A stretch of 64,000 nt of DNA from Haloferax marinisediminis. GTDB lineage: Archaea > Halobacteriota > Halobacteria > Halobacteriales > Haloferacaceae. A program made the translations under genes and the position numbers. Below, in pieces: positions 8,853-42,298 of the stretch (within the stretch, counting starts at the first letter, position 1; each line of letters opens with the position of its first letter). The notes under the pieces were generated by a model. It was not told the DNA's origin. It was given only the letters and a program-made list of their open reading frames with translations, and made no database searches. Location of the stretch: positions 1 through 64,000 of the forward strand of contig NZ_WKJP01000004.1 in assembly GCF_009674585.1 (NCBI RefSeq), written 5' to 3'.

Positions 8853-8862
8853 TGCAGTACGG

Positions 8863-20939: not shown

Positions 20940-21040
20940 ACCCGCGTCCCGCAACCCAATTTATCGAGGATACGAAATGAATGATACACTAACGGAGAAC
21001 AGTGGGTGTCCGCGTCAGCAACGTCCACTAAGCAAGGCAC

Positions 21041-22015: not shown

Positions 22016-22022
22016 CTCAACA

Positions 22023-25811: not shown

Positions 25812-26612
25812 TTAGTACCGAATCACCTGTGAAGGGTTCTGTGTAACCAGGTTTACTTCGATGATGTTGGCGGCCTCGATGACGAGTTGCGGTAACAGAC
25901 CGTACGCGAGTTCGTCCGGGAGCTGGCTCTTTGGCCGAGAGACTGCAATCGCTCCAAGCACATTGTCGTCAGTGTCTAAGATAGGGACACCAATTGCACG
26001 AATACCCTGCACAGCCTCTTCGTCACTGATTGCGTAGCCCTGCTCACGAATCTCGACGAGTTCAACGAGGAGTGAGTCGACGTCCGTAATCGTATCGGGT
26101 GTCTTGGCTGGGAGACCGTGGGTTTCGACGATCCACTCGACGTACTCTAATGGGAGGTGAGCCAGAATTGCTTTGCCGCACGAGCTCACGTGGAGATGGT
26201 CGGACCCCTCGAGTCGACGGGCACTGAACTCTTCAGAGACCCCCTGATTCCCGATCTCTCGATGGAGATAGATGGCCTTCCCAAACTCCTCGATGATGAG
26301 GCCCGCGTGACCACCCGTGAACTCTGCGAGGTGCTCCAGTTCGGGTTTCGCAATGTTGTACAGGTCAGTGCGATGCTTGACAGTGTGACCGAGGTTGAAG
26401 AATCGATGGCTGAGCCGGTATTCAGCGCCATCTTTGACCAGATATTCCCGCTCGTGCAACGTCGCAAGATGATTGTACACACCTCCTTTCGAAAGGTCGA
26501 GATGAGACGCTAGCTCCGAGACACCGGCACCATCCAACTCTTGGAGTGCCTCGATGATATCTAACGTCGTTTCGACAGTCTTGAGTGTCCGCATGTACGC
26601 GTAGTATTCCAT
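25812..26612 (-). CDS. IclR family transcriptional regulator (1)
   Basis: A protein of 266 residues from ATG 26612; ATG 26594 is an alternative. The N-terminal winged helix (about residues 8-65) includes GVSELASHLDLSKGGVYNHL. The C-terminal IclR effector domain covers about 80-255, with SSCGKAILAHLPLEYVEWIV and YAISDEEAVQGIRAIGVPIL and an end LPQLVIEAANIIEV. A perfectly spaced palindrome lies 16 bases upstream of its start. It is convergent with the Dpp operon and may control the Dpp, M20 and HpcH genes or the sugar cluster beyond; effector unknown. Confidence 0.9.
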   Translation of the reverse strand: MEYYAYMRTLKTVETTLDIIEALQELDGAGVSELASHLDLSKGGVYNHLATLHEREYLVKDGAEYRLSHRFFNLGHTVKHRTDLYNIAKPELEHLAEFTGGHAGLIIEEFGKAIYLHREIGNQGVSEEFSARRLEGSDHLHVSSCGKAILAHLPLEYVEWIVETHGLPAKTPDTITDVDSLLVELVEIREQGYAISDEEAVQGIRAIGVPILDTDDNVLGAIAVSRPKSQLPDELAYGLLPQLVIEAANIIEVNLVTQNPSQVIRY

Positions 26613-26627
26613 CCCCCTATGATAAGT

Positions 26628-26644
26628 GTTTGTGCTATACAAAC
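26628..26644. promoter_or_regulatory. 17-bp palindrome at the IclR-1 promoter
   Basis: GTTTGTGCTATACAAAC has arms GTTTGT and ACAAAC around CTATA-type spacing and obeys the pattern GTTTG-N7-CAAAC. It lies 16-32 bases upstream of the start at 26612, where it would cover the TATA region and transcription start. Autoregulation by the IclR protein is the simplest reading. Confidence 0.6.
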
Positions 26645-27432
26645 GAAAAATGCTGGGCATTTCAGAATGAGGTTTCTCGACGAATAAAACACACAGTGTG
26701 TGAATGGACTGTACATTCTAGTCTTGCAGCTCCTCAGCTGGCATGGTCCATCGAGCAGGTGGCGCGGTTGTTTGAAACGATAATATTTGTGTGAGTTGCG
26801 CGTCAAATGACGAATAGTTGCTTATTTCCTTCATTTATTATATCTTTTGAAGTGATAGTTCATATTCAATTTGAGCAAGGGTATTGTGTGTATTTATCAT
26901 AGTAAGGAATATTTTTTCAGATGTATATTCAAGTATATGTAGTATCTAAACAGATTCAATACGTTCTGCCACCAATCACAGACGAAACGTATAGTTCATT
27001 CTGTTCCATATTGAGGGGTGAACAGGGTTCAGAAAACACCATTTTCAATCTGTGTAACCCACTCAGAAGGCATTCTAGCAATTACTCGTTGAGCTACGAG
27101 CGATGCTAGTCGAACAGCACATTATATCAGTATCTTTATAATACAATCGAACCATTATATTTTATTCATATATGATGAGAACTATTTTGTGACTTTATCC
27201 GTCGACGTCGAAGAAGAGTTTACGTGACAAACTATCGTCTGGGTGATTCGAAGTCTCAGTTTGTACTTCGGAATGTCCGACGATGACCACGAGTAACGCT
27301 GCGTAGTCGGAGAATCAGACCGGACAGTGAGATAAAGGAGAACAGTCGAGCGCGGTAATCTTTCGAGGGGGTCTTCGCGACAGTGATACGAGTGTGCTAT
27401 CGTGTCAGACAACGGGTCTGGCGCATCTCGTA
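26645..27432. other. AT-rich gap before the sugar cluster
   Basis: This 788-base stretch is AT-rich, especially 26800-27180, and has no supported gene. Short frames at 26921-27109 (plus) and 27182-27412 (minus) have cysteine, serine and tyrosine contents unlike haloarchaeal proteins. I see no IS ends here. Confidence 0.5.
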
Positions 27433-28566
27433 CTAGACGTGCGTTTCATACTCCTCGAGGAACGATTCGACCGTGGCCAACGTGGGTGACTCACCGTTTC
27501 GTATGAAGGACCCAGCCACGGCGTTCCCAAGTGCGACCGTCGATTCAGCGTCAAGCCCCTCTAACAAGCCTAAACAGACGCCTGCATTGAAGTGGTCCCC
27601 GGAACTGGTCACGATTTCAGGGTCGGGAATGTGGAGTGTCTCGATCAGCGCCTGCTCGTCTTCAGTGACCATCGCCGACGCCCTCGCACCGTGTGAGACC
27701 ACTCGGTCGACATCGACGATGTCGCGAGCGGTGGTAGCAAGGTCGAGCATCGACTCTCCATCCACCGAACCACCACCACTCGTGATGAGTTCTTGAGTCT
27801 CGCCTCGATTGGCACTGAGCGTCACTGGAACCTGACGATTCAACGTCTGTAGTGCGTCGAATCCCTGCGTAAATTGTGACTGGGAGAGGTGGCGGATATC
27901 GGCCGGGTCGAAGAAGACGTTCGACGGTGGGTTCGAGAGCGTTGGCCAGATGTCGTCAGCCAGTCCACGGATGATTTCTGGCAGGTTTGGAATCATCGAC
28001 CAGTAACCAATCCCAAACAGGTCCGCCTCCTCGAGCTGGTCGGCGAGTTCGTCGTGACCGAGGTGTTCGTCAAGCGCATCCCAGTCTAGCTCCCGATAGC
28101 TACCAGCCTGGGTCAACATGAGCTTTCCGTCGTCGAACTCGACCGCATCGGTCATGCCTGGCTCACCGATGGAGTACATCGTGTTCCCGGCGAACTCATC
28201 TTCGAACTCCGACCGCATCGGCCTGCCGAACGTACCAATCATGATTGGGTCACAACCCCATCCGTCGAATACACGTGAGAGATGGCAGACGTGCCCTCCT
28301 GTTCGAGTACCACGGTCCAGCCACTCGATAGTGAGCGATGTTTCCGAAGCCACTGAGTCGTTGATATTGGTTCCGAGCGTGTCCAGTTCTCGAATGAGCG
28401 ACACCGAATCCATACTTTCCCGCTCAGCGACCATCTCGCGGACCGTATCGATGATGCCATCGAACCCGAATAGAACTGTGTGATTACGGGAGTGGGTCGA
28501 GAAGTTTTCTCGACAGGAACGGACCCCCTCTCTCGTTTCACTCGTGGAACTCTCTCTGTCGGCCAT
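27433..28566 (-). CDS. PfkB/ribokinase-family carbohydrate kinase (divergent)
   Basis: A protein of 377 residues from ATG 28566. The ribokinase-fold signature is at the C-terminal end: SSGDHFNAGVCLGLLEGL, with the catalytic-base Asp in GDHFNAG, followed by LGNAVAGSFIRNGESP. The N-terminal part has FGFDGIIDTV in place of the usual sugar-binding GxxxxD opening and is hard to align. A likely TATA element (on the minus strand, AAAAATATAAC near 28593-28603) lies about 30 bases upstream and supports this start. It is downstream of the ribose-type transporter with a 399-base gap, so it has its own promoter. Role: phosphorylation of the imported sugar or derivative; substrate unknown. Confidence 0.75.
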   Translation of the reverse strand: MADRESSTSETREGVRSCRENFSTHSRNHTVLFGFDGIIDTVREMVAERESMDSVSLIRELDTLGTNINDSVASETSLTIEWLDRGTRTGGHVCHLSRVFDGWGCDPIMIGTFGRPMRSEFEDEFAGNTMYSIGEPGMTDAVEFDDGKLMLTQAGSYRELDWDALDEHLGHDELADQLEEADLFGIGYWSMIPNLPEIIRGLADDIWPTLSNPPSNVFFDPADIRHLSQSQFTQGFDALQTLNRQVPVTLSANRGETQELITSGGGSVDGESMLDLATTARDIVDVDRVVSHGARASAMVTEDEQALIETLHIPDPEIVTSSGDHFNAGVCLGLLEGLDAESTVALGNAVAGSFIRNGESPTLATVESFLEEYETHV

Positions 28567-28965
28567 TAGCTGTAACCACACAACCATCTGTTATATTTTT
28601 AGTGGTGAGCGAGAACACGAGTGGGGTGTCTCTTGCTGTAGAACGTGACCAACGACTCGTTGTGACTGGTCTTCTGCTGTCACCGGACACTCACACGAGC
28701 CCCGCACACTGTCCGCTATTTTTGTGCTACCAGCGTCACTGTCGAGGTGTTCACTGCTCACACTCAGTGTCAGGCCTGACTAGTTTGATGTGAATTCCGG
28801 AAGCGCCCCCATATCGGACTTGCAGTGTTCGTTCCCCTGCTAAGCTCGGAGAACAGCGTCGACGAAATCGGGATATGGGTCAGAGTCGTGGAAGCCCCAT
28901 AACTAGTAGAGTAAGTGAGAAAGAAACCGCGAAAGAGAGAGAGAAGTGGGTTGGTCCCGACAAAC
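28567..28965. other. Gap between permease and kinase genes
   Basis: This 399-base stretch has no supported gene. Near 28590-28605 it holds the probable promoter of the minus-strand kinase gene. The rest, 28620-28965, shows only short, low-quality frames. Confidence 0.45.
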
Positions 28966-30003
28966 TTAGAGGTCAGAGAGGAGCCGTCCCCGAGTTTTCT
29001 GGACGAAGGTGTAGAGCAGAATCGCCGCGAACAATACGAGTCCGTTGATTGTCTGGACGATCTGTGGGTCGATGTTCAGCATGACGAGTCCGGCAGCGAT
29101 GGTGCTGAGCAGCAGCACTCCACCGAGAGCGTTGAAGACGTTCCCGCGGCCACCGAACAAACTCACACCGCCGATGACTGCAGCGGTGAATGCAGGAAAC
29201 AGCTGAGCAGTTCCGAGTGTCGGAGTCGCACCGCCGTTGAACCCCGTCAGAAGCAGTCCTCCGGTTGCGGCCAGCATCCCCGAGAGAACGAAGACAGAGA
29301 TGACGATACGGTCGGTATCGATACCTGCCTCGGCTGATGACTCTTCGTCACCACCGACAGCGTACACTGCACGGCCGAAGCGCGTCTTCATGAGGACGAA
29401 CCATACGGCGACGAAGAGGCCGAGTATGAAGATGACAGCGACAGGGACTGGCTGAGGCAATAGCCCGCCGAGCGACACTTCACCGCCGCCGAGCCACAGG
29501 TAGTTCTGGGGCAAGTCGTACACCGAGCGCGTCGACAGCACCAAGATTCCACCCTCGAAGACGATGAGCGCCGAAAGGGTCTGCAGGAATGGATTCACGT
29601 CGAATTTGGCGATGAAGAAGCCGTTCATGAACCCAATGAGACCCCCGATTGCGAGGATGACGAGGATTCCAACGATGCTTGGGGCCCCACTGAACCATTT
29701 CGTGAGGAACAGTGCGGTGAACATCGAGGAAAAACCCGCGACAGAACCGACCGAGAGGTCGAAGTTCCCACTGATGAGACAGATGGCCTCTGCGAGCGTG
29801 ATGGCTCCTAAGCCAGCACTCATGTACAACAGGAACTGGATGTTTCGATATTGGGTGAATATCTCGGGGAGCAGGACCGAGAAGAGGATAAATGCCACTA
29901 ACAAGATGGGCCAGATGAGGTTGTCCAGCACGAACAACATCATCCGCGTGCGATCACTTTGGAGTTCGGAGACCGTCGAACTCACTTTGGATATCGTACT
30001 CAT
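28966..30003 (-). CDS. Sugar ABC transporter permease (RbsC type)
   Basis: A protein of 345 residues with about ten hydrophobic segments and the BPD_transp_2 family pattern: ITLAEAICLISGNFDLSVGS, GFMNGFFIAKFDVNPFLQTL, and FTAAVIGGVSLFGGRGNVFN. The FDLSVG and GGxSLxGG motifs are hallmarks of ribose, xylose and autoinducer-2 transporters. It follows the binding-protein gene by 21 bases on the same strand. It forms the membrane channel, presumably as a homodimer since only one permease gene is present. Confidence 0.9.
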   Translation of the reverse strand: MSTISKVSSTVSELQSDRTRMMLFVLDNLIWPILLVAFILFSVLLPEIFTQYRNIQFLLYMSAGLGAITLAEAICLISGNFDLSVGSVAGFSSMFTALFLTKWFSGAPSIVGILVILAIGGLIGFMNGFFIAKFDVNPFLQTLSALIVFEGGILVLSTRSVYDLPQNYLWLGGGEVSLGGLLPQPVPVAVIFILGLFVAVWFVLMKTRFGRAVYAVGGDEESSAEAGIDTDRIVISVFVLSGMLAATGGLLLTGFNGGATPTLGTAQLFPAFTAAVIGGVSLFGGRGNVFNALGGVLLLSTIAAGLVMLNIDPQIVQTINGLVLFAAILLYTFVQKTRGRLLSDL

Positions 30004-30024: not shown

Positions 30025-31233
30025 TCAGTCCGTTCCCTCGATCTCACGGTACACGTTACCGTAGAGATATGGTGCATCGGCGTTCTCTTGGGTAATCGTC
30101 GCGTGCTGGCACTTAATCCAGCGCCACCACGTCTCATCTTCAGCCTCGTATTCGGTCACTGTCGCGGGGCCCCAGAACTGCTCGGACCACGGCTTGATAC
30201 CTTCGACCGTCTTGTTCTTGATCGAGATGTCTTCACCTGGCTTGAGCGTAGTTCCGACGTCTGGAATCGCACTGTCGCCGTTCTCGAGGTAGTCCCACAT
30301 CAGTTCGAGGGTCAACGGTGCGTACATATGCAGCGGCTGGTCGACGGCGAAGTCGTAGTAGCCGCTACCGATTCGCTGGTTGAGTTCGGGCCCTCCGTCG
30401 ATCCCGAAGGCCATGACGTGGTCTTCGTGGTCCCGCTTGTGGTACATGTCCATCTGTTTGAGTGCGGTCAGCGCACCCATGCCGCTGCCAACGTTGTTCG
30501 AATAGATGGCGTCGACATCCGGGTTGGCCTGAAGTGCACTTTGCGTCTGTGGGGCAGAGTCTTCAGGCGTCCCGTCGCTCTCGATGCGGTTGACAACCTC
30601 GACGCTGTCCGGGATGTTCTCGGTGAATCCGTACAGGCGAGCCTGGCTCGTCGTGGATTCGAAGTTGAACACGCTCGTGATGACTTTCGGGTTCTCGATT
30701 CCCTTCTCCTCGATCATATTGGTGAAGCGCTCACCAGCGACTTTTCCGCCTGCGTACTGGCCGAACAGCGCTCCAGCGAGAATGTCCTTCGATAGTGTGG
30801 CGGTGTCGAAGTTCATCACAGGGATGTCGTTCTTCGACGCCTCTTCGACGATTTTACGCGATGCCTTGGCATCGAAGGGATTCAGGAGAATACCATCGAG
30901 ACCCTGATTGATCGCGTTGATGGCGTCCTGCGTCTGTTTCGATGCGTCGAACCCAGCGTCGAGGATGACGATTTCGACGTCGTCACGGTCTTGGGTGTAC
31001 CACTTGGCCGCTTGACCCTGAACGTACAGGCCCGCCTGCCCCATCGACTTCATCGAGACAGCAATCCGCATCTTGTCGGAGTCCGAACTGCTACTGTCTC
31101 CTGTCGTCGTTCCACTGTCACCGCTACTGCCACTGTCTTCGGCTTGGTTGTTGTTCTGTGAACCTGCGCAACCGGCGAGACCGGCGATACCTGCAGCACC
31201 GATGCCTTTGAGGAGTTTACGTCTACTTGTCAT
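30025..31233 (-). CDS. Sugar ABC transporter substrate-binding lipoprotein (RbsB type)
   Basis: A protein of 402 residues with a Tat signal (MTSRRKLLKGIGAAGIAG), lipobox GLAGC with lipidated C22, and a Ser/Gly/Asp linker to about residue 55. The mature part is a periplasmic-binding-protein fold of the PF13407 group: MKSMGQAGLYVQGQAAKWY, QDAINAINQGLDGILLNPFD, and SNNVGSGMGALTALKQMD. It captures a sugar or sugar-like ligand outside the cell. Upstream 297 bases (31234-31530) separate it from the ATPase gene and include AT-rich promoter-like sequence near 31280-31320. Confidence 0.9.
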   Translation of the reverse strand: MTSRRKLLKGIGAAGIAGLAGCAGSQNNNQAEDSGSSGDSGTTTGDSSSSDSDKMRIAVSMKSMGQAGLYVQGQAAKWYTQDRDDVEIVILDAGFDASKQTQDAINAINQGLDGILLNPFDAKASRKIVEEASKNDIPVMNFDTATLSKDILAGALFGQYAGGKVAGERFTNMIEEKGIENPKVITSVFNFESTTSQARLYGFTENIPDSVEVVNRIESDGTPEDSAPQTQSALQANPDVDAIYSNNVGSGMGALTALKQMDMYHKRDHEDHVMAFGIDGGPELNQRIGSGYYDFAVDQPLHMYAPLTLELMWDYLENGDSAIPDVGTTLKPGEDISIKNKTVEGIKPWSEQFWGPATVTEYEAEDETWWRWIKCQHATITQENADAPYLYGNVYREIEGTD

Positions 31234-31530: not shown

Positions 31531-32373
31531 TCACGCAGTAGACGAGCTAGACGAGGATGATTCTGATTTGCGGCTGACGGTATCGCCGGAGTCTGGTTCG
31601 GAGTCATCGTCCTGAAGGGAATGGCCAGAGACCATCATACTGACCACGTCGTCACGCGTGATATTCTCGGAGTCTACAACGTCAACGATACGCCCCTGGA
31701 AGAGGACAGCAATCCGGTCGGTCATCGACAGCACCTCCTCGAGGTTGTGGTCAATGAGGATGACAGAGTGTCCACTCTCGCGCAACTGCTCGACGAGTTC
31801 CTCAACGTGGTCGACTGCGGCTTTCGAGAGTGCAGACGTTGGTTCGTCTAGGAGGACGATATCGGGGTCAGTGACGAGGGCTCGACCGATTGCGACAGCC
31901 TGACGTTCCCCTCCGGAGAGGTACTCGACTGGTGTGTCGGGGTCGACGTGGATATTCAGGTGCTCGCTCAGAATCCGTTCTGCCTCCGCGGCCATGTACT
32001 CACGGTCAACGATTGGGAGGACGCCACCGAGTTTTTTGACGGGCATCCGGCCGAGGAACAAGTTCTCTGCAACCGAGAGTTCATCGACGAGTGCGAGGTC
32101 CTGATATACCGTACCGATGCCGAGCTTACGGGCATGTTTGGGCCCTTCGATGGTGACTGGTTCACCTTCGAACCGAATCTCACCACCATCGGGCTGGTGA
32201 ATACCAACGAGCGTCTTGATGAACGTCGACTTCCCGGCGCCGTTGTCGCCGACGAGTCCGAGAACCTCGTTCTCTTCGAGTGTCAGGGTAACGTCCGAGA
32301 GTGCTTCCACGGTACCGAAGCGTTTCTGGACGTGTTCGACCTCAATTCGTGGTTTGGGTGTGTCAGTGGTCAT
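31531..32373 (-). CDS. Sugar ABC transporter ATPase, single nucleotide-binding domain
   Basis: A protein of 280 residues from ATG 32373. Motifs: Walker A GDNGAGKSTF, Q-loop GTVYQDLALVDELSV, signature YLSGGERQAVAIGRAL, Walker B IVLLDEPTSALS, H-loop LIDHN. Most RbsA-type ATPases contain two such domains in about 500 residues; this one has a single domain, like FrcA. The C-terminus ends in an acidic and Ser-rich tail (KSESSSSSSSTA). It is upstream of the binding-protein and permease genes on the same strand. Confidence 0.9.
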   Translation of the reverse strand: MTTDTPKPRIEVEHVQKRFGTVEALSDVTLTLEENEVLGLVGDNGAGKSTFIKTLVGIHQPDGGEIRFEGEPVTIEGPKHARKLGIGTVYQDLALVDELSVAENLFLGRMPVKKLGGVLPIVDREYMAAEAERILSEHLNIHVDPDTPVEYLSGGERQAVAIGRALVTDPDIVLLDEPTSALSKAAVDHVEELVEQLRESGHSVILIDHNLEEVLSMTDRIAVLFQGRIVDVVDSENITRDDVVSMMVSGHSLQDDDSEPDSGDTVSRKSESSSSSSSTA

Positions 32374-32505
32374 GGTGATAAGACTGTGTGAAGGGGTATG
32401 ATAGCACATGTTAACTATTAGTACAAATAAGTGTCGGTGGGTTGGCAGTCCAAGTCGTCGAGAGAGCGTGTGACGAGACTGGTTGGAGGTAGAGGGTCTT
32501 CAGCG

Positions 32506-33834
32506 TCAGTCGTGGGCCGCAGAATCCAGTGCCATCGTGAGGTTCCCTTCCGCATCGAACGTCCATGGCTGGTCTTCGTGGACTTCGATGTCGTCTCGGT
32601 CAGCAAGTTCCTCGGCGACGGGCTCCGACACCCACAGTTCGTCAGGAGTCATAGTGTTCCGAATCCGTGCGATCCGAAGCTCGTCGGCGCTTGCGACGCC
32701 GGTCATCGACGCGGAGAGGACGAACGCTGTCGCGTCGCTTGGGACGACGAACGGAAGTTTTGCCCGAACCGGCTCACCGCTCGTTACGATGTTGACGTAT
32801 GTGTCCCCAAAGTCGATTTCCGACGCGAGGTCACGGTGGATGAGGTCGGCGAGGCCGACTCCGAGCGCATTGCCGTGGGATGGTGGTGTGAGTGACCGAA
32901 CGTAGACGCGCGTCAGCGATGGCTTCTGACGCTCTGCTTGGCCGTGGAACCAGACCCGACCGATGACGTTGGTGTCGAGTCCAGTTCCGCTCACTTCCTT
33001 GCCCATCTCGTCGACGACGAGCAAATCGAGGTCGTCGACTGGGAGTTCCGGGAAGAACTCCGCAGACCGCGAGAGTAACGCTGGTTCCTCCTCGAGAAGG
33101 TCGGCTGCAGGGATTCCCTCGATAGCGGCCGCCCGCTCGTCGGCGTTCTCGATGATACCGACTCCACCGACGATGGGTGTTTCATCGACGAGAACGCTCG
33201 CCCACTCCGGAATTACATCGGCGAACCCACGGTCTAGGGCCGCGTTGTGCATGGCGTTGGCCCCTCGCTGCTTGCCAAGTCCGACGACGGCCATCTTACA
33301 GAGGCCGCTTTCGATGTCTCCCTGAAAGTCGGTGTGGAGTTTGACTCGGTTGACCAGCAAGACGGCATCGGCCTCGAGTGCATCTTCGGCGGCATAAATC
33401 GACCATCCCTGTGAATCGGTTCCCACCTCCTCAACGGCCAGCGACGAACGAATCTCGCAGCCAAGGCGCTCAGGTGTAATTCCTAGCTCTCTGAGCATCT
33501 CACGCTGCCCTTCGGGTGTCGCCCCACCGTGACTTCCCATCGCGGGGAATACGAACGGCTCGAGGTCACGTTCCTGTAGTTCGGCGACGATCGACTCGAG
33601 GACCGTTGGAAGGTCGTGGATTCCACGACTGCCAGCTGTGATTCCGACCGTACTCCCTGGCTCGAGGTTTTTGAGCTTCGGGATGTCGTCAAGCGCAGTA
33701 CGCGAGGCTTCCGGAACGTTCTGCACGGTGGGCTGTGTTCGGGTACGACTCACGCGGTACGCACGTGGGAGGTCAGATACGTCGACGTCGTTGGCCGACT
33801 CCAGTCGGTCCCGTCCTGGAAAATCGAACTCCAT
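32506..33834 (-). CDS. LarA-like (DUF2088) nickel-pincer racemase/epimerase homologue
   Basis: A protein of 442 residues of the LarA family, whose characterised members racemise or epimerise 2-hydroxy acids with a nickel-pincer nucleotide. The residues matching the LarA active site all appear present: H102 in AMGSHGGATPEG, H167 in NRVKLHTDFQGD, K180 in GLCKMAVVGLG (the lysine that anchors the cofactor) and H196 in GANAMHNAAL. The Lactobacillus enzyme has H108, H174, K184 and H200. It is divergent from a DUF1537 kinase and PdxA2, and 132 bases upstream of a sugar transporter. That context suggests C2 epimerisation of a four-carbon acid sugar, which is inference. A perfect palindrome lies 24 bases upstream of its start. 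Confidence 0.82.
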   Translation of the reverse strand: MEFDFPGRDRLESANDVDVSDLPRAYRVSRTRTQPTVQNVPEASRTALDDIPKLKNLEPGSTVGITAGSRGIHDLPTVLESIVAELQERDLEPFVFPAMGSHGGATPEGQREMLRELGITPERLGCEIRSSLAVEEVGTDSQGWSIYAAEDALEADAVLLVNRVKLHTDFQGDIESGLCKMAVVGLGKQRGANAMHNAALDRGFADVIPEWASVLVDETPIVGGVGIIENADERAAAIEGIPAADLLEEEPALLSRSAEFFPELPVDDLDLLVVDEMGKEVSGTGLDTNVIGRVWFHGQAERQKPSLTRVYVRSLTPPSHGNALGVGLADLIHRDLASEIDFGDTYVNIVTSGEPVRAKLPFVVPSDATAFVLSASMTGVASADELRIARIRNTMTPDELWVSEPVAEELADRDDIEVHEDQPWTFDAEGNLTMALDSAAHD

Positions 33835-33857
33835 TGGTATCTACACGAATACACATG

Positions 33858-33872
33858 AACACCTTAGGTGTT
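33858..33872. promoter_or_regulatory. Perfect 15-bp palindrome at the LarA promoter
   Basis: AACACCTTAGGTGTT has perfect 7-base arms around a central T. It sits 24 bases upstream of the LarA-like start, in the divergent region with the kinase operon. Half-sites ACCT and AGGT recur in an inverted pair upstream of the DeoR-type gene (37909-37925), so it may be a site for that regulator. Confidence 0.5.
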
Positions 33873-34066
33873 ACCCCGTCTAGCCAACGTGAGTCACTCC
33901 GGGGCGGAAGCCACCACACGTAGCACAGCGAACGTCCGGTGGGATTGAAGGCCCCCAAACATGGTCGTGTGCGAACCTTTCTTTACGGCGGGTTGAACAT
34001 ACAGACCATGGACCGTTGCGTTCCTCAACTGTACACCCGAGACGAGCGACAACTGGAGGGACGACT

Positions 34067-35338
34067 GTGACCCGATGTGTTGTCGTCGCGGACGACTTGA
34101 CAGGAAGCTGTGACACAGGTCATGAATTCGCGATGCGTGGATACGACACGCGTGTCGTAGTCTCACCACAAAAAGAGACGTCGATGGCACAGGGTGACGT
34201 CATGGTTGTCAACACGGAGTCACGCTATGCAGCACCCGAAGAGGCTGCAGAACGCGTTAAGACAGCCTTCGAAGTTCCTGGTGCAGATATCGCGTTCAAG
34301 AAGGTCGACTCGACGCTCCGCGGTAACGTCCGTGTCGAGGTGGAAGCCGCACTCGACGCTGTGGGTGCCGACCTCGTTCTCGTCGCGCCCGCGTTCCCCA
34401 TCAACGGGCGACTGACGGCGTGCGGGTTCCACCTTGTGAACGGCAAACTGGTGACCGACACCTCGGCCGGCAAGGATGCTGAGCGCCCACCGGCATCCGA
34501 CGCGCTCCCTGCGTTCTTCGCGGAGAGTGACTACGTGACTGAGCATCTCGGCGTCGAGACGGTTGCCCGTGGGAGCGCTGCCGTTCGGAGGGCTCTCGAA
34601 TCGATACAGTCGGACGATGCGCCCGTCATCGTCACCTGTGACGCCTTGACGGACGACCACCTCGCTGCAGTGGCTGCCGCGGGTGCTGACCTCCCCGACC
34701 GATGTCTGTACGTTGGGAGTGGTGGACTCGCCCGTCACGTCCACGTACCTGGGCTTGCATCGGGCGCTGGAGTCGATGTCGACGAGACACGGCCCGTCGT
34801 GGGGGTAGCAGGGAGCGTCGCTCCAGAGACGCTCGTGCAGATCGATGAGATTACACAGAAACGTCGTCGACAACTCGACCTCGAGATGGCGGTCACCGAA
34901 CCGTCCGCTGCCGGTGCTGACCTTGCCTCTAGAGGGGTGGAAGCTGTCGACGATTACGGTGGCGTCGTCCTCCACAGTGCTGAAAACCGAGGCGACGTGG
35001 ACCGAACACTGGCAGCCGGTGAGCGAGCTGGCGTCGACGGTTCGATGGTCCGGCGTCGAGTCACGGATGCCCTCGCTACGGCTGCCGGGGAGCTGGTCCA
35101 CGACGACCAGCCAGCGAACCTCTTTCTCACCGGCGGTGCCACCGCGATTACCATCCTCAACCAGTTAGACGCCCACGCACTCCGGATGGCTGGTGACGCG
35201 ATTGAACCGGGAATCCCACTTGCATCCGTCGTCGGTGGTGTGGCAGACGGTGCGGCGGTCATCACAAAAGCTGGCGGGTTTGGTGACGAGCAGGCAATAA
35301 TTAAGTCGCTCGCTCGTATCGGTTTTGCTGATGAGTGA
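34067..35338 (+). CDS. dtnK: Four-carbon acid-sugar kinase (DUF1537 family)
   Basis: A protein of 423 residues starting at GTG 34067; GGAGGG (34055-34060) is a good ribosome-binding site 6 bases upstream. The N-terminal domain opens VVADDLTGSCDTGHEFA with the diagnostic DDxTG, followed by FKKVDSTLRGNV and a VLVAPAFPINGR segment. The C-terminal nucleotide-binding domain includes GVAGSVAPETLVQI, LFLTGGATAITILNQL and ASVVGGVADGAAVITKAGGF. DUF1537 kinases phosphorylate D-threonate, D-erythronate or 3-oxotetronate at C4. Pairing with PdxA2, which overlaps by 8 bases, points to the D-threonate/D-erythronate route. The gene symbol follows that pairing and is not proven. Confidence 0.87.
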   Translation: MTRCVVVADDLTGSCDTGHEFAMRGYDTRVVVSPQKETSMAQGDVMVVNTESRYAAPEEAAERVKTAFEVPGADIAFKKVDSTLRGNVRVEVEAALDAVGADLVLVAPAFPINGRLTACGFHLVNGKLVTDTSAGKDAERPPASDALPAFFAESDYVTEHLGVETVARGSAAVRRALESIQSDDAPVIVTCDALTDDHLAAVAAAGADLPDRCLYVGSGGLARHVHVPGLASGAGVDVDETRPVVGVAGSVAPETLVQIDEITQKRRRQLDLEMAVTEPSAAGADLASRGVEAVDDYGGVVLHSAENRGDVDRTLAAGERAGVDGSMVRRRVTDALATAAGELVHDDQPANLFLTGGATAITILNQLDAHALRMAGDAIEPGIPLASVVGGVADGAAVITKAGGFGDEQAIIKSLARIGFADE

Positions 35339-36326
35339 AAATCGTCCGACCATAGGGGTTACCATGGGTGACCCTGCGGGCATCGGAAGCGAAGTCATCG
35401 TCAAATCCTACCCTCAGTTGGTCGAGAGTGCAACCGTCGTCGTCATCGGTGACGAATCGGTACTCGCCGACGCAGCGAATCGGTTCGCCACTGACCTCTC
35501 CGTGCGACGTGTTACATCGCCAGCCGAGGCAGGCGCCGACCCGAGCGTGCTGCCCGTCCTCGACTTAGACAACGTGACCGACCATCGGTATGGCGAACTA
35601 TCTCAGGCGAACGGTGCAGCGAGCCTCGCCTACGTCGAACGTGCAATCGAGCTGGCACAGGCCGGGGAGATCGACGCGATTACTACTGCACCGATCAATA
35701 AACAGGCAACACGGATGGCGGGCAGCGAGTACGCAGGGCACACCGGCATGCTCGCAGACTACACCGATACCGACGAGTACTCGATGATGCTCGTGGAAGA
35801 CGACCTGACGGTGACACACGTGAGTACGCACATTCCGTTGCGGGAAGCCTGTTCGAATCTCACCGTTGGTGATGTCGAATCGACGATCAGCGTCACGAAC
35901 GAGGCGCTGCGTGACCTCGGTCTCGACAACCCGGCCATCGCAGTCGCGGGATTGAACCCGCATGCGAGTGACGGGGGACTCCTCGGTGACGAGGAAGCAG
36001 AGATTATCGAACCGGCCATAGAACGCGTCGCCGAGACGGGCGTCAACGTGACTGGCCCCTACTCGCCCGACACCGTCTACGTCCGTGCGGCCGCCGGAGA
36101 GTTCGACTGCGTCGTCTCCATGTATCACGACCAGGGCCACATCCCGATTAAGATGCTCGGCTTCACCGGCGAGGACGATGCAGTGAGCGGGGTCAACGTC
36201 ACCATCGGACTCCCGATCATCCGAACGAGTGTCGACCACGGGACAGCCTTCGACATCGCTGGCGAGGGGGTCGCGTCCGAACAGAGTATGCTCGATGCAG
36301 TGTCTATTGCTGCAGAGATGGCCTGA
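35331..36326 (+). CDS. pdxA2: PdxA2-type 4-phospho-acid-sugar dehydrogenase
   Basis: A protein of 331 residues with the PdxA fold. The phosphate-site motif GVTMGDPAGIGSEV is at residues 9-22, and the three metal-binding histidines are H137 (AGHTGMLAD), H167 (VSTHIPLREA) and H266 (SMYHDQGHIPIKMLGF). The start at 35331 overlaps the kinase stop in ATGAGTGA, so expression is coupled. Haloarchaea do not need PdxA for vitamin B6 by the DXP-independent route, so a catabolic PdxA2 role is likely. That role is oxidation and decarboxylation of 4-phospho-D-threonate or D-erythronate to dihydroxyacetone phosphate. Confidence 0.88.
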   Translation: MSENRPTIGVTMGDPAGIGSEVIVKSYPQLVESATVVVIGDESVLADAANRFATDLSVRRVTSPAEAGADPSVLPVLDLDNVTDHRYGELSQANGAASLAYVERAIELAQAGEIDAITTAPINKQATRMAGSEYAGHTGMLADYTDTDEYSMMLVEDDLTVTHVSTHIPLREACSNLTVGDVESTISVTNEALRDLGLDNPAIAVAGLNPHASDGGLLGDEEAEIIEPAIERVAETGVNVTGPYSPDTVYVRAAAGEFDCVVSMYHDQGHIPIKMLGFTGEDDAVSGVNVTIGLPIIRTSVDHGTAFDIAGEGVASEQSMLDAVSIAAEMA

Positions 36327-36362: not shown

Positions 36363-37061
36363 CTAAACGAGTGCAAAGGCGCGGACTGAACATCCGCCTG
36401 TTCCCTGCACGTTGAGTGGCGGGAAGAAGAAATCAGCACGTCGACTGTCCGCACCATCAAGTACTTGATCGAGGTTGCGAACTTCCTCGATGGGGATAAT
36501 CTCGTTTTCGAGCAGTGGGAGGTGTGAGTCAGCTGGGTGTACATCGGTCGAGGGGCCATGAGCGGGTACCTCGTCGTACCAGCCACCGACGCTCGCACCT
36601 TCGGTTCCGACTGCGGTTGGTTCGAGTGAGGCGATGTACTCCGCGGCGTCGCCGGTCAGATATGGGAACTCGAAAAGGTACTCTGGGGTCTGTCCGTAGT
36701 ACTCGTCCCACCCCGTATGGAGCATCACAACGTCACCCTGCTCGATGTCGTCCTCGTAGGCCTCGATGTCAGCGCGGGTTATCGCTTCCTCGGGGTCTTT
36801 CGGTGTCAAATCGATAACGACGCCCTCACCCATGAAGCGCTCGATCGAGAAATCGTCCAGTGTCTTCCCATCCGGGATGAAGTGTGCTGGCGCATCGATG
36901 TGCGTCGCTGTGTGACTCCGCATCTCTATGCGCTCCATGGTGAACCCATCCCGTGCGGCGATAGATGTCTGATCGAGCTCGACTTGCGGGAAGCTCGGCC
37001 ATACTGGGATTCCTGCGCAGATTGGGTTAGAGAGGTCGATAACCTCTTTTGAATCAAACAT
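36363..37061 (-). CDS. Cyclase-family hydrolase (PF04199)
   Basis: A protein of 232 residues from ATG 37061. The metal-binding signature HxxTHxDxPxH is seen as SHTATHIDAPAHF (about residues 50-60). Other family features are GDVVMLHTGWDEYYG and a C-terminal PPLNVQGTGGCSVRAFAL. Members include kynurenine formamidase and isatin hydrolase, and some act on lactones or amides. It is last in a four-gene minus-strand unit (SDR, aldolase, DeoR, cyclase), 43 bases after the regulator. In this cluster, hydrolysis of a sugar lactone is possible, but nothing in the sequence proves it. Confidence 0.82.
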   Translation of the reverse strand: MFDSKEVIDLSNPICAGIPVWPSFPQVELDQTSIAARDGFTMERIEMRSHTATHIDAPAHFIPDGKTLDDFSIERFMGEGVVIDLTPKDPEEAITRADIEAYEDDIEQGDVVMLHTGWDEYYGQTPEYLFEFPYLTGDAAEYIASLEPTAVGTEGASVGGWYDEVPAHGPSTDVHPADSHLPLLENEIIPIEEVRNLDQVLDGADSRRADFFFPPLNVQGTGGCSVRAFALV

Positions 37062-37104
37062 GATAGAACCGACAGACGCCTGAAAAATAAATATTGCGCT
37101 CAGA

Positions 37105-37869
37105 TCACTTGTAGAGGTCGTCGACGAGTGCCGTCTCTTCGAACAAGTCGTGGTAGTCCTCGGGAACGCGACCGTCGGTGACGAAGAGGTCGACGTCGTC
37201 GATCGAACCGAATCGCCGGAAGCTCTGTTCACCAAGCTTCTCCGTGACGGTGACGACGACGGTTCGGGCAGCGTGTTCCACTACGAGTCGTTTGAGTTCG
37301 GCTTCGGCCTCGTTGGGCGCGGAGAGCGTCCCGTCGGGTCCGATTCCATTGATGCCGATGAACGCGAGATCGAAGTGGGAGTTCCGGATGTACTCTTCCG
37401 CAGTCGGGCCGACCAGTGCTTTGGTCTCGGGACGGTACTCACCACCAGTCGATTTGACTGTCCGGTCCTCTTTCGCGAGTTCGGGCAGCAGTAGCGGTGA
37501 GTTAGTGACGGAGATGGTCGAATCGACATCCGGGACTTCCTTCGCGACCTGCATCGTCGTCGTCCCTGCGTCAAAGTAGATTACCTGTCCTTCTTGGATC
37601 TCCTTGACAGCCCGTTCCGCAATCGCTTGTTTACGGTCGAGATGCTGGACGAGTCTCCGGTTGAAGGACCGCTCGACGCCCACGTTCGTCACGGGGACGG
37701 CCCCGCCATGGGTTCGCTCGACGAGATTTCGCTCGGCGAGGTTAGACAGGTCACGTCGAATCGTCGATGGCGACACCTCGAGACGCGAAGCGAGTTCGTC
37801 GACCGAGAGACCACCGTGTTTCGTGACCAGTTCCGTTACCGACCGACGGCGTTGCTCGGGTGTGGTCAT
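37105..37869 (-). CDS. DeoR/GlpR family transcriptional regulator
   Basis: A protein of 254 residues from ATG 37869. The N-terminal HTH (about residues 6-57) reads LSVDELASRLEVSPSTIRRD then LSNLAERNLVERTHGG, a classic DeoR signature. The C-terminal phosphosugar-sensing domain has YFDAGTTTMQVAKEV and FIGINGIGPDGTLSAPNEAE. These proteins usually repress sugar genes and respond to a phosphorylated intermediate. Its place between the aldolase and the cyclase makes it the probable local regulator. The inverted repeat at 37909-37925 lies 40 bases upstream of its start. Confidence 0.9.
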   Translation of the reverse strand: MTTPEQRRRSVTELVTKHGGLSVDELASRLEVSPSTIRRDLSNLAERNLVERTHGGAVPVTNVGVERSFNRRLVQHLDRKQAIAERAVKEIQEGQVIYFDAGTTTMQVAKEVPDVDSTISVTNSPLLLPELAKEDRTVKSTGGEYRPETKALVGPTAEEYIRNSHFDLAFIGINGIGPDGTLSAPNEAEAELKRLVVEHAARTVVVTVTEKLGEQSFRRFGSIDDVDLFVTDGRVPEDYHDLFEETALVDDLYK

Positions 37870-37908
37870 GCATTCACACCACGAAGATTGTGCGATTGCC
37901 GCGTCCAT

Positions 37909-37944: not shown

Positions 37945-38784
37945 TTAATTTTCTCCCCCATCCGGCATGGGTGTGGACTCCGTCGACTCCCACACCTCAT
38001 CGACTGACGCACCGTCGTGGACGATCGACATGAGCGCACGTACGGTCTGTTCGGGGTCCTCGGACTTCCAGATCGTTCGACCAATCATGAGACCACGCGC
38101 ACCGGCATCCATTGCACCCTCGACAGATTCGAGCATGCCACGAGTGGTTCCCGTCGCTGGCCCACCCAGAATCATCACGGGGACGGGCGCGTTCTCGACG
38201 ATGGGTTCGAACGACTCGACGCTACCGGTGTACGGCGCTTTCAGGATGTCAGCTCCGAATTCCCATCCCATACGAAGTGCGTCGGCGACGAACTCAGGGT
38301 CCGTTTCTAACTGGTCAGGGATACGTTCACCCCACATGACGGGTTCGACGACCAGCGGAATGTCAGTACCTCTCAACTCTTCGGCGAGTTCACTGACGTA
38401 CTCTACGTTGCGACGGAACGTCTCGGCGTCATCACGGCCGAAGACGAGGACAATTTTGACACCCACTGGGTCGAGTTCCTTGAGGAACTCTGTGTCGAAC
38501 GCTGGCGTCCAGAGATCTTGACCGTGGTCACGACCGGGACTGGTTGACCATGTGACGACGTCTGCAGTGAGGATGATGTCGACGTCTGCAGCTTGCAGTT
38601 GCTCTGCGTAGTGCCTGGCGAAATGCGGTCCGACAAGCACCGCGTCCGGTTCACCACGCAGTACCGTCTCGAGCGTCTCTTCCGGGTTCTCGAAGCCCGC
38701 TGGGGCCCCGAGACTGAGTCCGTGGTCAAGCGCTACAACGACTGCATTCCCTGATGGGGTATCGAGAAGCTTGGGACTGTTCAT
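37945..38784 (-). CDS. Class I aldolase of the DhnA/LsrF family
   Basis: A protein of 279 residues from ATG 38784; longer versions upstream begin with unlikely sequence. The (beta/alpha)8 barrel motifs are VVVALDHGLSLG (D20, H21), PLVVEPVMWGERIP (E147), the Schiff-base lysine K182 in DILKAPYTG, and the phosphate-binding end GARGLMIGRTIWKSEDP. Relatives are archaeal fructose-bisphosphate aldolase, the ADH-type aldolase of aromatic synthesis and LsrF. In this cluster it may cleave a phosphorylated sugar acid or ketose phosphate; the substrate is undetermined. It lies 61 bases after the SDR gene. Confidence 0.85.
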   Translation of the reverse strand: MNSPKLLDTPSGNAVVVALDHGLSLGAPAGFENPEETLETVLRGEPDAVLVGPHFARHYAEQLQAADVDIILTADVVTWSTSPGRDHGQDLWTPAFDTEFLKELDPVGVKIVLVFGRDDAETFRRNVEYVSELAEELRGTDIPLVVEPVMWGERIPDQLETDPEFVADALRMGWEFGADILKAPYTGSVESFEPIVENAPVPVMILGGPATGTTRGMLESVEGAMDAGARGLMIGRTIWKSEDPEQTVRALMSIVHDGASVDEVWESTESTPMPDGGEN

Positions 38785-38845
38785 TGGCTTCGATTGGGCT
38801 GAATGTGTCCATCCATATAACATTTCTCCTGCTGTGACCGTTCGC

Positions 38846-39628
38846 TCAGATTGTCCGCCATCCGCCGTCAACCATGAGTACCTCACCAGTGACGTACGCT
38901 GCATCGTCGCTGGCGAGATAGAGTACAGCACCGGCGATGTCGTCAGGAGTACCCGCCCGCCCGAGGGGAACCGGTTTGATCAGTTCATCGCTCTCGGCTG
39001 CTGCTGGTGCTTCCTCAGACCAGCCGTCGATGAACTCCGTAGCGATCTGTCCGGGACCGACGGCGTTTACGCGAATGTCGTGTTCTGCCAACTCGAGGGC
39101 AGCGCCTCGCGTAATCATCTTCACTGCGGCCTTCGTCGAATCGTACTGAATCTGTTCGCGCTGGGCAACGAAGGAACTGATCGACGCAGTGTTGATAATC
39201 GCCCCTTCAACACCTCGGTCGATCATATCTTGGGCCGCAGCTTGACAGCCGAAGAATACTCCCTTAGCGTTGACGTCGTGAATCTTCTCGAACTCGTCTT
39301 CGCTGACTTCGAGCAACCCACCACCGATGAAGAGGCCAGCGTTGTTCACCATCACGTCGACACCACCATACTCGCGGGCACGGTCGACAGCCTCTCTAAT
39401 CTCCGCAGCATTCGAGACGTCCGTCTGAACGTACTCGGCTGTTCCGCCTCTCTCACGAATCAGCTCGTGTGTTGGAGTCTCTGCGTCTTTGGGCTGGGCG
39501 TCGATGTCCGCGTTCAGGACTGTTGCTCCTGCATCTGCGAATCGAAGAGCGATTTCGCGTCCGATTCCGGACGTCGCACCGGTAACCACGACGGTACTGC
39601 CGTTGAAGTCAGCACTGTAGTCAGGCAT
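38846..39628 (-). CDS. Short-chain dehydrogenase/reductase
   Basis: A protein of 260 residues, a classical SDR. It shows the cofactor motif VTGATSGIGREIA (about residue 17), NNAG, a catalytic Ser in INTASISSF, Tyr and Lys in YDSTKAA, and the end MVDGGWRTI. An acidic Asp at the end of the second strand (NADID) suggests NAD rather than NADP. The minus-strand promoter has GTTTTTATC about 25 bases upstream of the start, fitting a leaderless transcript. It leads the aldolase-DeoR-cyclase unit and probably oxidises a hydroxyl of the sugar acid. Confidence 0.9.
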   Translation of the reverse strand: MPDYSADFNGSTVVVTGATSGIGREIALRFADAGATVLNADIDAQPKDAETPTHELIRERGGTAEYVQTDVSNAAEIREAVDRAREYGGVDVMVNNAGLFIGGGLLEVSEDEFEKIHDVNAKGVFFGCQAAAQDMIDRGVEGAIINTASISSFVAQREQIQYDSTKAAVKMITRGAALELAEHDIRVNAVGPGQIATEFIDGWSEEAPAAAESDELIKPVPLGRAGTPDDIAGAVLYLASDDAAYVTGEVLMVDGGWRTI

Positions 39629-40759
39629 CGCTCTGAATTCAGCAACGACAGATAAAAACATTGGGGCGAGGTGCAGTGCGCTGTCTGTGACGTCCAACGA
39701 CGTTCTGCCCGATATGATTGAAATTCCTCATTGTCGATAAATTCAATGATTGAATACGCAATATCTACGTGGATTGAGTCCCGTGGTAACAGCAGCCACG
39801 ATTCAAACCCTCCGTTTCAAATTTCAACCGCAAAATTCGGCTATTCGGGCGTTTACTTATTATTGCTCAATTACAGAATAATTTAACAAAGAATATGCAA
39901 CAATGAGTTTCATTCATCATCGAAATGGTTGTTCTACGCGTCACGACGACAACGCCCTCGATGTGTGGGGTCGTGCAACTCACACAACAGATTTCCATTA
40001 CTGTTGTACGTCTGTAATACACAATGGTTTTGTCGTCTAGATTCTACCATACTTTCAGTGAACGGCGGCGACTGTGGAGTCAGATCGTCGTCGTTCTTTT
40101 ACAGCATTACAGATGTAATGTGTCCTGTGAATTCTCCGACTCGTGTGCCAGTTCGCGCACTACGCCAATTACTCCAACACTGCTCGAAGAATGCAGGCAG
40201 CTGCCAGTTCGTACTGCCGTCACTGTCTCATCTACACTCACTCATCTTTGGAGTTGATGCTTTGCTCAAACAATGACAGTATTCTAGTATAAATATAATT
40301 CAAACAGGTACGTGGCGGGCGTGTAGCACAGAATATCTACATTAACATTCATCAGCCCAATATCTCTGCTTTTACAACGCTTATCACTGTTTAAATTGTA
40401 TTATTAAACTCCTCGTACAGGTTCACATTGGTTTGTATTGAATTATTCTGTGACCTCTCGTGAGTCCCGATACCCATTCAAATACCTCGAAATGAGGGCT
40501 TTCAACCCAATTTAGCAATGGGACAGTGGAGAATGAGTTCGGCAGTGGATAGAATAAAATGTTGGTAGTTCTGGCATACCATAATTAATGTAACATGTAT
40601 ATCAAACACATTATCTCGCCTTTTCTTCAGTCGATGAAGGATGAGGCAGCGCGACAACGGCCAAGGTACGAGTAGAACTACCCAACAACCAGAACCACCC
40701 AACAACCCGTCGAACGGAACTGTAACCAACGCAATCTTCGACAGTTGCCAGCGTTCGAA
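39629..40759. other. Long gap between the sugar cluster and pirin
   Basis: This 1.1-kb stretch includes the SDR promoter at its left end and is otherwise AT-rich, with no supported gene. Frames at 39929-40276 are cysteine- and serine-rich and look non-coding. TTCAATGATTGAA near 39743 is a short palindrome. Nothing else is identifiable. Confidence 0.5.
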
Positions 40760-41512
40760 TCAGAGAACGAACGGTCCACGCTGGCGTATCGGTTCTCCGT
40801 GTGGCCGTCCAGAGACGGCGACCACTCGAAGCGTGCCTTCGGACTGAATATTCACCTGACAGCGACCAGTGACCGGGAGGACGTCGCCCTCACCGAAATC
40901 GTCTCCATCGACAGTTCCTGTTCCGGAGATTCCGTAGAGAAATCCCGCCCAGTCAGTCTCAACAGACCACGTCCACGAGTCGTCGACGTGGACATCCAAA
41001 TACTCCATCGGAGTGTATAGTTCGATTGGGGAACCCTCGCCGACGACTGTTGTGACTGCCGCGCCGTCGCACAGTTCCGTTGGGAGTTCTTCGGCACTCG
41101 CGTCCGTGTAGTTGGGGTCGACATCCTTGTCGTCAGCGGGGAGGTTCACCCATAGTTGGAGACCGTTACAGGCGTGTCCGCCCGCAGGGAACTCTGAATG
41201 GCGAATTCCACGACCTGTCGTGATTCGCATCACATCCCCTTCGGACGCTGTGTGAAACACACCGAGTGAGTCCTCGTGGTCCATCCCACCGTCGAGCATG
41301 TACGAGACGATCTCGAACCCACGGTGGGGATGCGTCGGAAATCCCTTGTCGGGGTCGATGTAGAACCGCTCAAACAGGACGAATGGGTCGATATTCTTCG
41401 GATAGGTGGTCGTCGGAAATGCACGATTCGAGTTGACACCAGTGCCGTGTCGAACCATCTCACCCGAAATAGGACCGACGTCCGCCCCTTTCGACGTGTC
41501 CTCAGCGTTCAT
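40760..41512 (-). CDS. Pirin family protein
   Basis: A bicupin protein of 250 residues from ATG 41512; an ATG at 41545 is possible. The iron site of the N-terminal cupin is recognisable: GFPTHPHRGFEIVSYMLDG (His-x-His) and a later RHSEFPAG (His), with GLQLWVNLP after it. The C-terminal cupin (about residues 165-240) is degenerate as usual. Pirins are Fe-dependent and include quercetinase-like and redox-sensing proteins. It is divergent from the superoxide dismutase gene, which suggests an oxidative-stress setting. Confidence 0.9.
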   Translation of the reverse strand: MNAEDTSKGADVGPISGEMVRHGTGVNSNRAFPTTTYPKNIDPFVLFERFYIDPDKGFPTHPHRGFEIVSYMLDGGMDHEDSLGVFHTASEGDVMRITTGRGIRHSEFPAGGHACNGLQLWVNLPADDKDVDPNYTDASAEELPTELCDGAAVTTVVGEGSPIELYTPMEYLDVHVDDSWTWSVETDWAGFLYGISGTGTVDGDDFGEGDVLPVTGRCQVNIQSEGTLRVVAVSGRPHGEPIRQRGPFVL

Positions 41513-41695
41513 ACGACGAGCAACGCCACGAAGGCGGAAAACCATCACGTAAGCGGAAGCATAGCACCGTGTGATTGGTGGATAGTAGACGCGGGTTTGA
41601 CTCGTTGTCGTACAGCACACCCCAGTAATTCTACATAAATCGAATTCAGGGAAGCTACATGACCCTCCCGTACCTCGTCGTAGGTGGGAATACAA

Positions 41696-42298
41696 ATGTC
41701 TGAATACGAACTTGACCCGCTTCCGTACGACTACGACGCGCTCGAACCACACCTCTCCGAACAAGTCCTGACGTGGCATCACGACACCCACCATCAGGGC
41801 TACGTCAATGGCTGGAACGCAGCCGAAGAGACGCTCGCCGAGAACCGCGAAGCAGGCGAGTTTGGCTCGTCCGGCGGTGCGCTCCGCAACGTCACCCACA
41901 ACGGCTCCGGACACATCCTGCACGACCTCTTCTGGCAGAACATGTCACCGGAAGGCGGTGACGGACCCGAGGGTGCGCTCGCAGACCGCATCGCCGAGGA
42001 CTTCGGTTCCTACGAAGCCTGGAAGGGCGAGTTCGAAGCCGCAGCAGGTGCTGCCGGCGGCTGGGCACTTCTCGTCTACGACTCGTTCTCGAACCAGCTT
42101 CGCAACGTCGTCGTCGACAAGCACGACCAGGGCGCACTCTGGGGCTCCCACCCCATCCTCGCGCTCGACGTCTGGGAACACTCCTACTACCACGACTACG
42201 GACCGGCTCGCGGTGACTTCATCTCCGCATTCTTCGGGGTCGTCGACTGGGAAGAGCCGTCGGCCCGCTACGAGCAGGCCGTCGAACTCTTCGAGTAG
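41696..42298 (+). CDS. sod: Fe/Mn superoxide dismutase
   Basis: A protein of 200 residues. All four metal ligands are in place: His in LTWHHDTHHQGYV, His in GSGHILHDLFW, and Asp and His in ALDVWEHSYYHDY. It removes superoxide in the cytoplasm; haloarchaeal enzymes are mostly Mn type. The ATG at 41696 is preceded about 60 bases upstream by CTACATAAATC, a possible TATA element that would leave a short leader. Confidence 0.96.
   Translation: MSEYELDPLPYDYDALEPHLSEQVLTWHHDTHHQGYVNGWNAAEETLAENREAGEFGSSGGALRNVTHNGSGHILHDLFWQNMSPEGGDGPEGALADRIAEDFGSYEAWKGEFEAAAGAAGGWALLVYDSFSNQLRNVVVDKHDQGALWGSHPILALDVWEHSYYHDYGPARGDFISAFFGVVDWEEPSARYEQAVELFE

Follow-up and report, generated by a model that had tools for sequence, protein, structure and literature searches.

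A LarA-superfamily protein linked to a DUF1537 kinase and PdxA in Haloferax marinisediminis as a proposed D-erythronate/D-threonate 2-epimerase

Gene organization of the locus

We analyzed a stretch of 64,000 nucleotides from Haloferax marinisediminis (positions 1 to 64,000 of contig NZ_WKJP01000004.1, assembly GCF_009674585.1; referred to as the window), in which a gene for a LarA-like protein lies beside genes for a DUF1537 kinase and a PdxA-family enzyme. The initial annotation, made from the sequence alone, had placed this trio at 32506 to 36326, and these coordinates were correct. The LarA-like open reading frame (ORF) is on the minus strand (32506..33834) and encodes a protein of 442 amino acids, which belongs to NCBIfam family NF052515 and is proposed here to be a D-erythronate/D-threonate 2-epimerase. 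The kinase ORF is divergent from it and spans positions 34016 to 35338 of the plus strand, opening at TTG 34016; the translation start is probably GTG 34067, which stands behind a GGAGG motif. With this start, the kinase gene occupies 34067..35338, and a divergent promoter region of 232 bases (33835..34066), read from the sequence, separates it from the LarA-like gene.

The kinase showed both domains of the DUF1537 four-carbon acid sugar kinases, SBD_N (PF07005, 170.8 bits) and NBD_C (PF17042, 82.2 bits), and its best PDB relative was 4xfm (113.7 bits). The third gene (35325..36326, plus strand) shares 14 bases with the kinase ORF and encodes a PdxA-family oxidative decarboxylating dehydrogenase (PF04166, 357 bits). 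Among PDB entries, this protein was closest to D-threonate 4-phosphate dehydrogenase 6e85 (275 bits) and PdxA2 2hi1 (273 bits), with PdxA1 proteins of the vitamin B6 type scoring 185 bits or less. The genome carries PdxS (342 bits), and PdxJ was not found in it. Because the genome makes vitamin B6 via PdxS and lacks PdxJ, the PdxA of the window is most likely catabolic.

Identity and fold of the LarA-like protein

The proposal that the protein is a LarA-type homologue was borne out by both its profile score and its predicted fold. Against NF052515, which NCBIfam names "nickel pincer cofactor-dependent isomerase, group 22," it scored 489.6 bits (cut-off, 400). The match to Pfam Lar_N was weak (21.4 bits by hmmscan and 23.3 bits on the genome, at a cut-off of 23.3), and Pfam DUF362 also matched weakly. 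When the PDB sequences were searched with the protein and with a 45-sequence profile, no LarA relative was found. An AlphaFold (AF2) model built from 45 relatives showed a predicted local distance difference test score of 92.2, and the best 18 Foldseek matches of this model were all LarA, malate racemase, or LarA-like nickel-pincer structures (E values of 3e-11 to 8e-9), followed by a next match at 2.6e-3. In the VIA-align comparison, 12 LarA-family PDB entries aligned with Z scores of 19.0 to 21.2 and root mean square deviations of 3.2 to 4.8 over 309 to 333 residues, and the next entry showed a Z score of 6.6. The sequence searches thus show a weak link to LarA, and the fold match is unambiguous. 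These results show that the protein is a member of the LarA superfamily with the two-domain LarA fold. It has in common with the described superfamily (PMC7583248, PMC11770544) the fold, the catalytic histidine pair, the pincer lysine and histidine, and larBCE genes in the genome, but is only 11 to 16% identical to any LarA-family structure.

Most group-22 proteins, including at least six of the plasmid matches, are labeled "DUF362 domain-containing protein" in RefSeq, a name that hides their nickel-pincer kinship.

Conservation of the active site

Residues 102, 167, 180, and 196 of the protein are H, H, K, and H, and the initial annotation had aligned them by spacing with H108, H174, K184, and H200 of lactate racemase. 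The same pairing was obtained when an alignment of 45 sequences was compared with canonical LarA proteins from other genomes in a single HHalign comparison (E value of 7.7e-8), and the four residues were invariant both in that alignment and across 108 aligned group-22 sequences. HHalign also paired R70 with the R75 of LarA that binds the nickel-pincer nucleotide (NPN), and R70, K180, and H196 were all invariant. In LarA, H108 and H174 are catalytic, and R75, K184, and H200 bind NPN (PMC7583248, PMC11770544). The two residues following the second histidine read the substrate in characterized LarA members; in the group-22 alignment, position 168 is T and position 169 is mostly D or N, which are polar, as would be expected for a polyhydroxy-acid substrate. 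The clade whose genes are linked to the kinase is marked by many residues, including the stretch at 352 to 358 (S-G-E-x-x-R-A). The conservation of the histidine pair and of the NPN-binding residues supports a nickel-pincer-type active site in the window protein.

Cofactor biosynthesis genes

Genes larB, larC, and larE, whose absence the initial annotation had named beforehand as refuting, were all found in the same genome above cut-off (larB, 234 bits; larC, 422 bits; larE, 296 bits). Co-occurrence was examined in 293 haloarchaeal genomes, which also served as the sample for the linkage counts below. A larC gene was present in 118 of the 121 genomes with a group-22 protein, compared with 122 of the 172 genomes without one (Fisher P of 3e-10, with relatedness ignored). 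In one bacterial relative, from Sulfitobacter, the group-22 gene directly adjoins larC. On a plasmid of Loktanella salsilacus (positions 673 to 11574), a group-22 LarA gene forms a single run with larB, larC, and a gene for an adenine nucleotide alpha hydrolase, which is probably larE. The run also holds genes for an IlvD-type dehydratase, a dehydrogenase, an aldolase of the dihydrodipicolinate synthase (DHDPS) type, and an altronate dehydratase, and from this gene content it may constitute a self-contained operon that encodes both a sugar-acid epimerase and the synthesis of its cofactor.

The only 3 of the 121 group-22 carriers without a LarC match belong to one haloarchaeal genus, which points either to gaps in the assemblies or to a lost ability to make the cofactor. 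In the whole sample, larC was present in 240 of the 293 genomes and a group-22 LarA in 121; the remaining 122 larC carriers have another client or none known. For Haloferax volcanii, the presence of larBCE genes without a client enzyme has been noted as an unsolved question (PMC8305020).

Linkage to the kinase-PdxA pair

A DUF1537 kinase gene was located within 3 kb of 45 of the 52 haloarchaeal PdxA genes. At least 24 of these 45 kinase-PdxA pairs had a group-22 LarA gene within 6 kb, compared with 0.3 expected from the LarA copy number; the count is a lower bound, and reading of the loci added two genomes. The orientation and surroundings of the linked loci vary, so shared descent of one block fails to explain the linkage. 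On a Natronococcus CG52 plasmid, the three genes run in the order kinase-PdxA-LarA with a gap of 2 bases, and on a Haladaptatus plasmid LarA overlaps the kinase. The arrangement is also found in bacteria: a Rubrobacter indicoceani plasmid carries kinase-PdxA-LarA with PdxA and LarA overlapping, and an acidobacterial metagenome-assembled genome shows the same order. Several trios are accompanied by GntP-type permeases. These results support a functional tie between LarA and the kinase-PdxA pair that is conserved far beyond chance.

Quick trees of LarA, the kinase, and PdxA were made without bootstrap. In the LarA tree, the window protein fell in a haloarchaeal clade of 30 members (Shimodaira-Hasegawa-like approximate likelihood ratio support of 99), 27 of which were linked to a kinase or PdxA. 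Part of this sample was drawn by kinase-PdxA proximity; among members picked solely for their similarity to LarA, 7 of 9 were linked. The LarA proteins of Rubrobacter, the acidobacterial genome, Halarchaeum acidiphilum, and one Haladaptatus locus were outside this clade, and the association is therefore either ancient or of more than one origin. We also considered whether the LarA-linked kinases or PdxA proteins form clades of their own. This was rejected, since the link was scattered on both trees (11 changes, with a shuffled mean of about 12). The trees suggest that LarA is specialized to the kinase-PdxA module and that the module also exists without LarA, which is the pattern expected if LarA is an optional front end that adds a second epimer. 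The trees fit the earlier suggestion that such a cluster could channel the two epimers into one kinase.

As a separate observation, four haloarchaeal loci have a group-22 LarA near genes for glycoside hydrolase family 28 or esterases and for Gfo/Idh/MocA dehydrogenases, neighbors that suggest pectin or uronate breakdown.

Proposed reaction and alternative explanations

D-Erythronate (2R,3R) and D-threonate (2S,3R) differ at C2 only, as the initial annotation had stated in agreement with established chemistry. D-Threonate 4-phosphate shares its configuration with 4-phosphohydroxy-L-threonine, the classical PdxA substrate. We consider it fairly probable that the window protein is an NPN-dependent C2-epimerase that converts D-erythronate to D-threonate and feeds the kinase-PdxA route. 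In the proposed mechanism, NPN would be made by the products of the chromosomal larB, larE, and larC genes and held by K180, through the thioamide, and by H196 as a nickel ligand. H102 and H167 would serve as the acid/base pair, with a hydride leaving C2 and returning on the other face, so that D-erythronate (2R,3R) would become D-threonate (2S,3R). The DUF1537 kinase would then phosphorylate D-threonate to D-threonate 4-phosphate, and the PdxA2-like enzyme would oxidize C3 and release CO2 to give dihydroxyacetone phosphate. LarA may thus be an optional addition at the entry of a D-threonate module already in place, opening it to the second epimer. Cofactor binding, reaction, substrate, and direction are what we infer for this enzyme, the choice of a four-carbon acid being drawn entirely from the neighbors of its clade.

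Several observations weigh against this assignment. The best NCBIfam model for the kinase, that of D-threonate kinase (NF047819), scored 226 bits and did not reach its cut-off of 450, and the protein is therefore filed only as a DUF1537 kinase; likewise, the PdxA scored 312 bits against the model of D-threonate 4-phosphate dehydrogenase (NF002891), below the cut-off of 583, and is therefore called only PdxA2-like. Two LarA proteins of the window clade, those of Halomarina BND7 and Halarchaeum CBA1220 (57 to 58% identical), are encoded near enolase-superfamily dehydratases with no adjacent kinase-PdxA pair, and the Halarchaeum CBA1220 locus also has an FAA hydrolase. Other, paralogous group-22 clades adjoin genes for mannonate, altronate, and enolase-superfamily dehydratases, for GntP permeases, and for DHDPS-type aldolases. 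Given their mannonate and altronate dehydratase neighbors, group 22 is not tied to C4 acids, and overall it looks like a family of sugar-acid epimerases that act on several different substrates. In addition, the window trio is part of a wider gene cluster that also encodes an aldolase, a ketohexokinase-type kinase, and a short-chain dehydrogenase. The two clade members that lack the kinase-PdxA pair, the neighbors of the other clades, and the wider cluster would agree with an NPN-dependent C2-epimerase of a longer or different acid (a pentonate, a hexonate, or another C4 acid), with the kinase-PdxA pair acting further down or on a different branch. We regard this as possible but rather unlikely, because the closest clade is tied to the kinase-PdxA pair at several loci that share no other nearby genes, and Rubrobacter has the same trio in a minimal, overlapping form.

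Two further residues of the active site also count against the main reading. A67 stands at the position of D72, which is catalytic in LarA, and the catalytic K298 of LarA has no conserved partner in the alignment, in which K279 and R293 are conserved nearby. Together with the very low sequence similarity to LarA and the DUF362 names of most relatives, these differences would be expected if the protein had the LarA fold but were no NPN isomerase, or catalyzed another hydride-transfer reaction; Desguin et al. suspected that groups 12, 13, and 16 are not NPN isomerases. However, the two catalytic histidines and the three residues that bind NPN are invariant, larC co-occurs with group 22, some operons include larB, larC, and a probable larE, and NCBIfam labels the group as nickel-pincer dependent, which makes such a departure highly improbable. 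A further explanation is that the kinase and PdxA serve vitamin B6 synthesis by recovering 4-hydroxy-L-threonine, with LarA as an unrelated neighbor; it draws on the ability of DUF1537 kinases to phosphorylate 4-hydroxythreonine (PMC7954711) and on the score of the PdxA above the cut-off of the general pdxA equivalog (TIGR00557, 374 bits; cut-off, 290). With PdxS present and PdxJ absent, however, the PdxA product would lead nowhere, and this salvage role was rejected; the PdxA2-like character of the enzyme and a LarA linkage far above chance leave it almost no probability.

Relation to known pathways

A DUF1537 kinase (DtnK) and PdxA2 reportedly form a D-threonate route, in the 2016 work of Zhang et al. 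The D-threonate half of the initial claim, that the kinase-PdxA2 pair turns D-threonate or D-erythronate into dihydroxyacetone phosphate, is in line with that report. The D-erythronate half needs correction: the route described for D-erythronate (PMC10580937, PMC12540250) consists of a dehydrogenase and an isomerase followed by a different DUF1537 kinase and an aldolase-type decarboxylase. DtnK and DenK are cited in PMC10971088. As in the DtnK-PdxA2 pathway, the window kinase and PdxA genes are adjacent and overlapping, and the window PdxA is closest to characterized PdxA2; in contrast, the window pair is archaeal, scores below the equivalog cut-offs, and is joined by a LarA-family gene that is unmentioned in the available parts of the accounts of that pathway. 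The aldolase-DUF1537 pathway for D-erythronate and L-threonate (PMC10580937, PMC12540250) resembles the proposed route in reaching dihydroxyacetone phosphate via a DUF1537 kinase, but its first enzymes are a dehydrogenase and an isomerase and its last is an aldolase-type decarboxylase, and it has neither an epimerase nor PdxA. The closest chemistry is that of the D-gluconate 2-epimerases LarAH19 and LarAH20 (GntE), which epimerize a polyhydroxy acid at C2 in a sugar-acid gene context, as proposed for the window enzyme. They belong to a different group and act on a C6 rather than a C4 substrate, and the available part of their description gives no kinase-PdxA neighbors.

No group-22 protein was among those assayed in the 2020 LarA survey (PMC7583248). 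Our literature search, with subscription papers and supplements outside it, turned up neither a paper linking LarA to DUF1537 nor one describing a pathway for erythronate or threonate in archaea, and it gave no published function or activity for group 22, which is already a named family. The earlier remark that no such archaeal pathway is described therefore holds within that search, but the arrangement is not solely archaeal, as it occurs in Rubrobacter and the acidobacterial genome. What is new is a well-supported prediction of a nickel-pincer reaction and of an alternative D-erythronate route, and no new kind of system. If correct, the prediction would add a four-carbon sugar-acid epimerase to the few known nickel-pincer reactions, provide a D-erythronate route needing no dehydrogenase-isomerase-aldolase set, and give the NPN cofactor a physiological role in archaea. 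Because group 22, DUF1537, and PdxA all have matches in the genome of the tractable model Haloferax volcanii, the question is testable by ordinary deletions.

Neighboring genes and other features of the window

On the LarA side of the trio, all on the minus strand, an ABC transporter ATPase gene adjoins LarA (31531..32409; PF00005) and is 85% identical to a gene at the same place in Halomicroarcula rubra. It is followed by genes for an RbsB-type sugar-binding protein of the Peripla_BP_4 family (30025..31233; PF13407, 126 bits) and a ribose-type ABC permease of the BPD_transp_2 family (28966..30003; PF02653, 101 bits), both 88% identical in the same species. Further along are a PfkB-type kinase of the "prokaryotic ketohexokinase" family (27433..28587; PF25270, 443.6 bits) and an IclR-family regulator (25812..26660; PF01614, PF09339).

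On the PdxA side, also on the minus strand, a Cyclase-family hydrolase, a possible lactonase (36363..37235; PF04199, 120 bits), is 79 to 87% identical in Halogranum amylolyticum, Haloarcula amylovorans, and Halomicroarcula rubra. Its ORF matches these from residues 45, 34, and 7, respectively, and the true start probably lies inside the ORF. The next genes encode a DeoR/GlpR-type regulator (37105..37908; NF041397, 365 bits; cut-off, 300), a DeoC/FbaB-type (class I) aldolase (37945..38931; PF01791, 120.5 bits), and a short-chain dehydrogenase of the sugar or polyol dehydrogenase type (38846..39697; PF13561, 202 bits), which are 74 to 75%, 73 to 81%, and 81 to 82% identical, respectively, in Halogranum and Halomicroarcula. 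All three species have a LarA 78% identical to that of the window with the same kinase, PdxA, and Cyclase-family genes, and relatives of the ketohexokinase-type gene near the cluster; Halogranum and Halomicroarcula share the regulator, aldolase, and dehydrogenase, and Halomicroarcula also the ABC transporter. Because the nearest Haloferax LarA proteins found are only 47 to 49% identical, and the contig is 283 kb long, the block is probably a plasmid-borne acquisition.

The whole cluster could be read as a new archaeal catabolic route, from ketose import through D-erythronate epimerization to two molecules of dihydroxyacetone phosphate, a scheme that we consider doubtful. The RbsB-type transporter would bring in a ketose, which the ketohexokinase-type enzyme would phosphorylate; cleavage of the product by the class I aldolase would then yield a tetrose and a first dihydroxyacetone phosphate. 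The short-chain dehydrogenase would oxidize the tetrose, and the Cyclase-family hydrolase would open the lactone to D-erythronate. The nickel-pincer enzyme would invert C2 to give D-threonate, from which the kinase and PdxA would form the second dihydroxyacetone phosphate. If this were true, group-22 proteins would be the physiological clients of the larBCE genes, so far without an assigned one, in Haloferax and other haloarchaea.

Elsewhere in the window, two sets of oligopeptide-type ABC transporter genes, which include SBP_bac_5 binding proteins, are located at 19011 to 25003 and 47302 to 53355. A pirin-like ORF and a divergent superoxide dismutase-like ORF were recognized by eye at 40760 to 42298, and a protein of the ATP-type phosphoenolpyruvate carboxykinase family is encoded at 43529 to 45043 (PF01293, 183 bits). 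A glycoside hydrolase family 3 enzyme (PF00933, PF01915) is encoded at 56523 to 58805.

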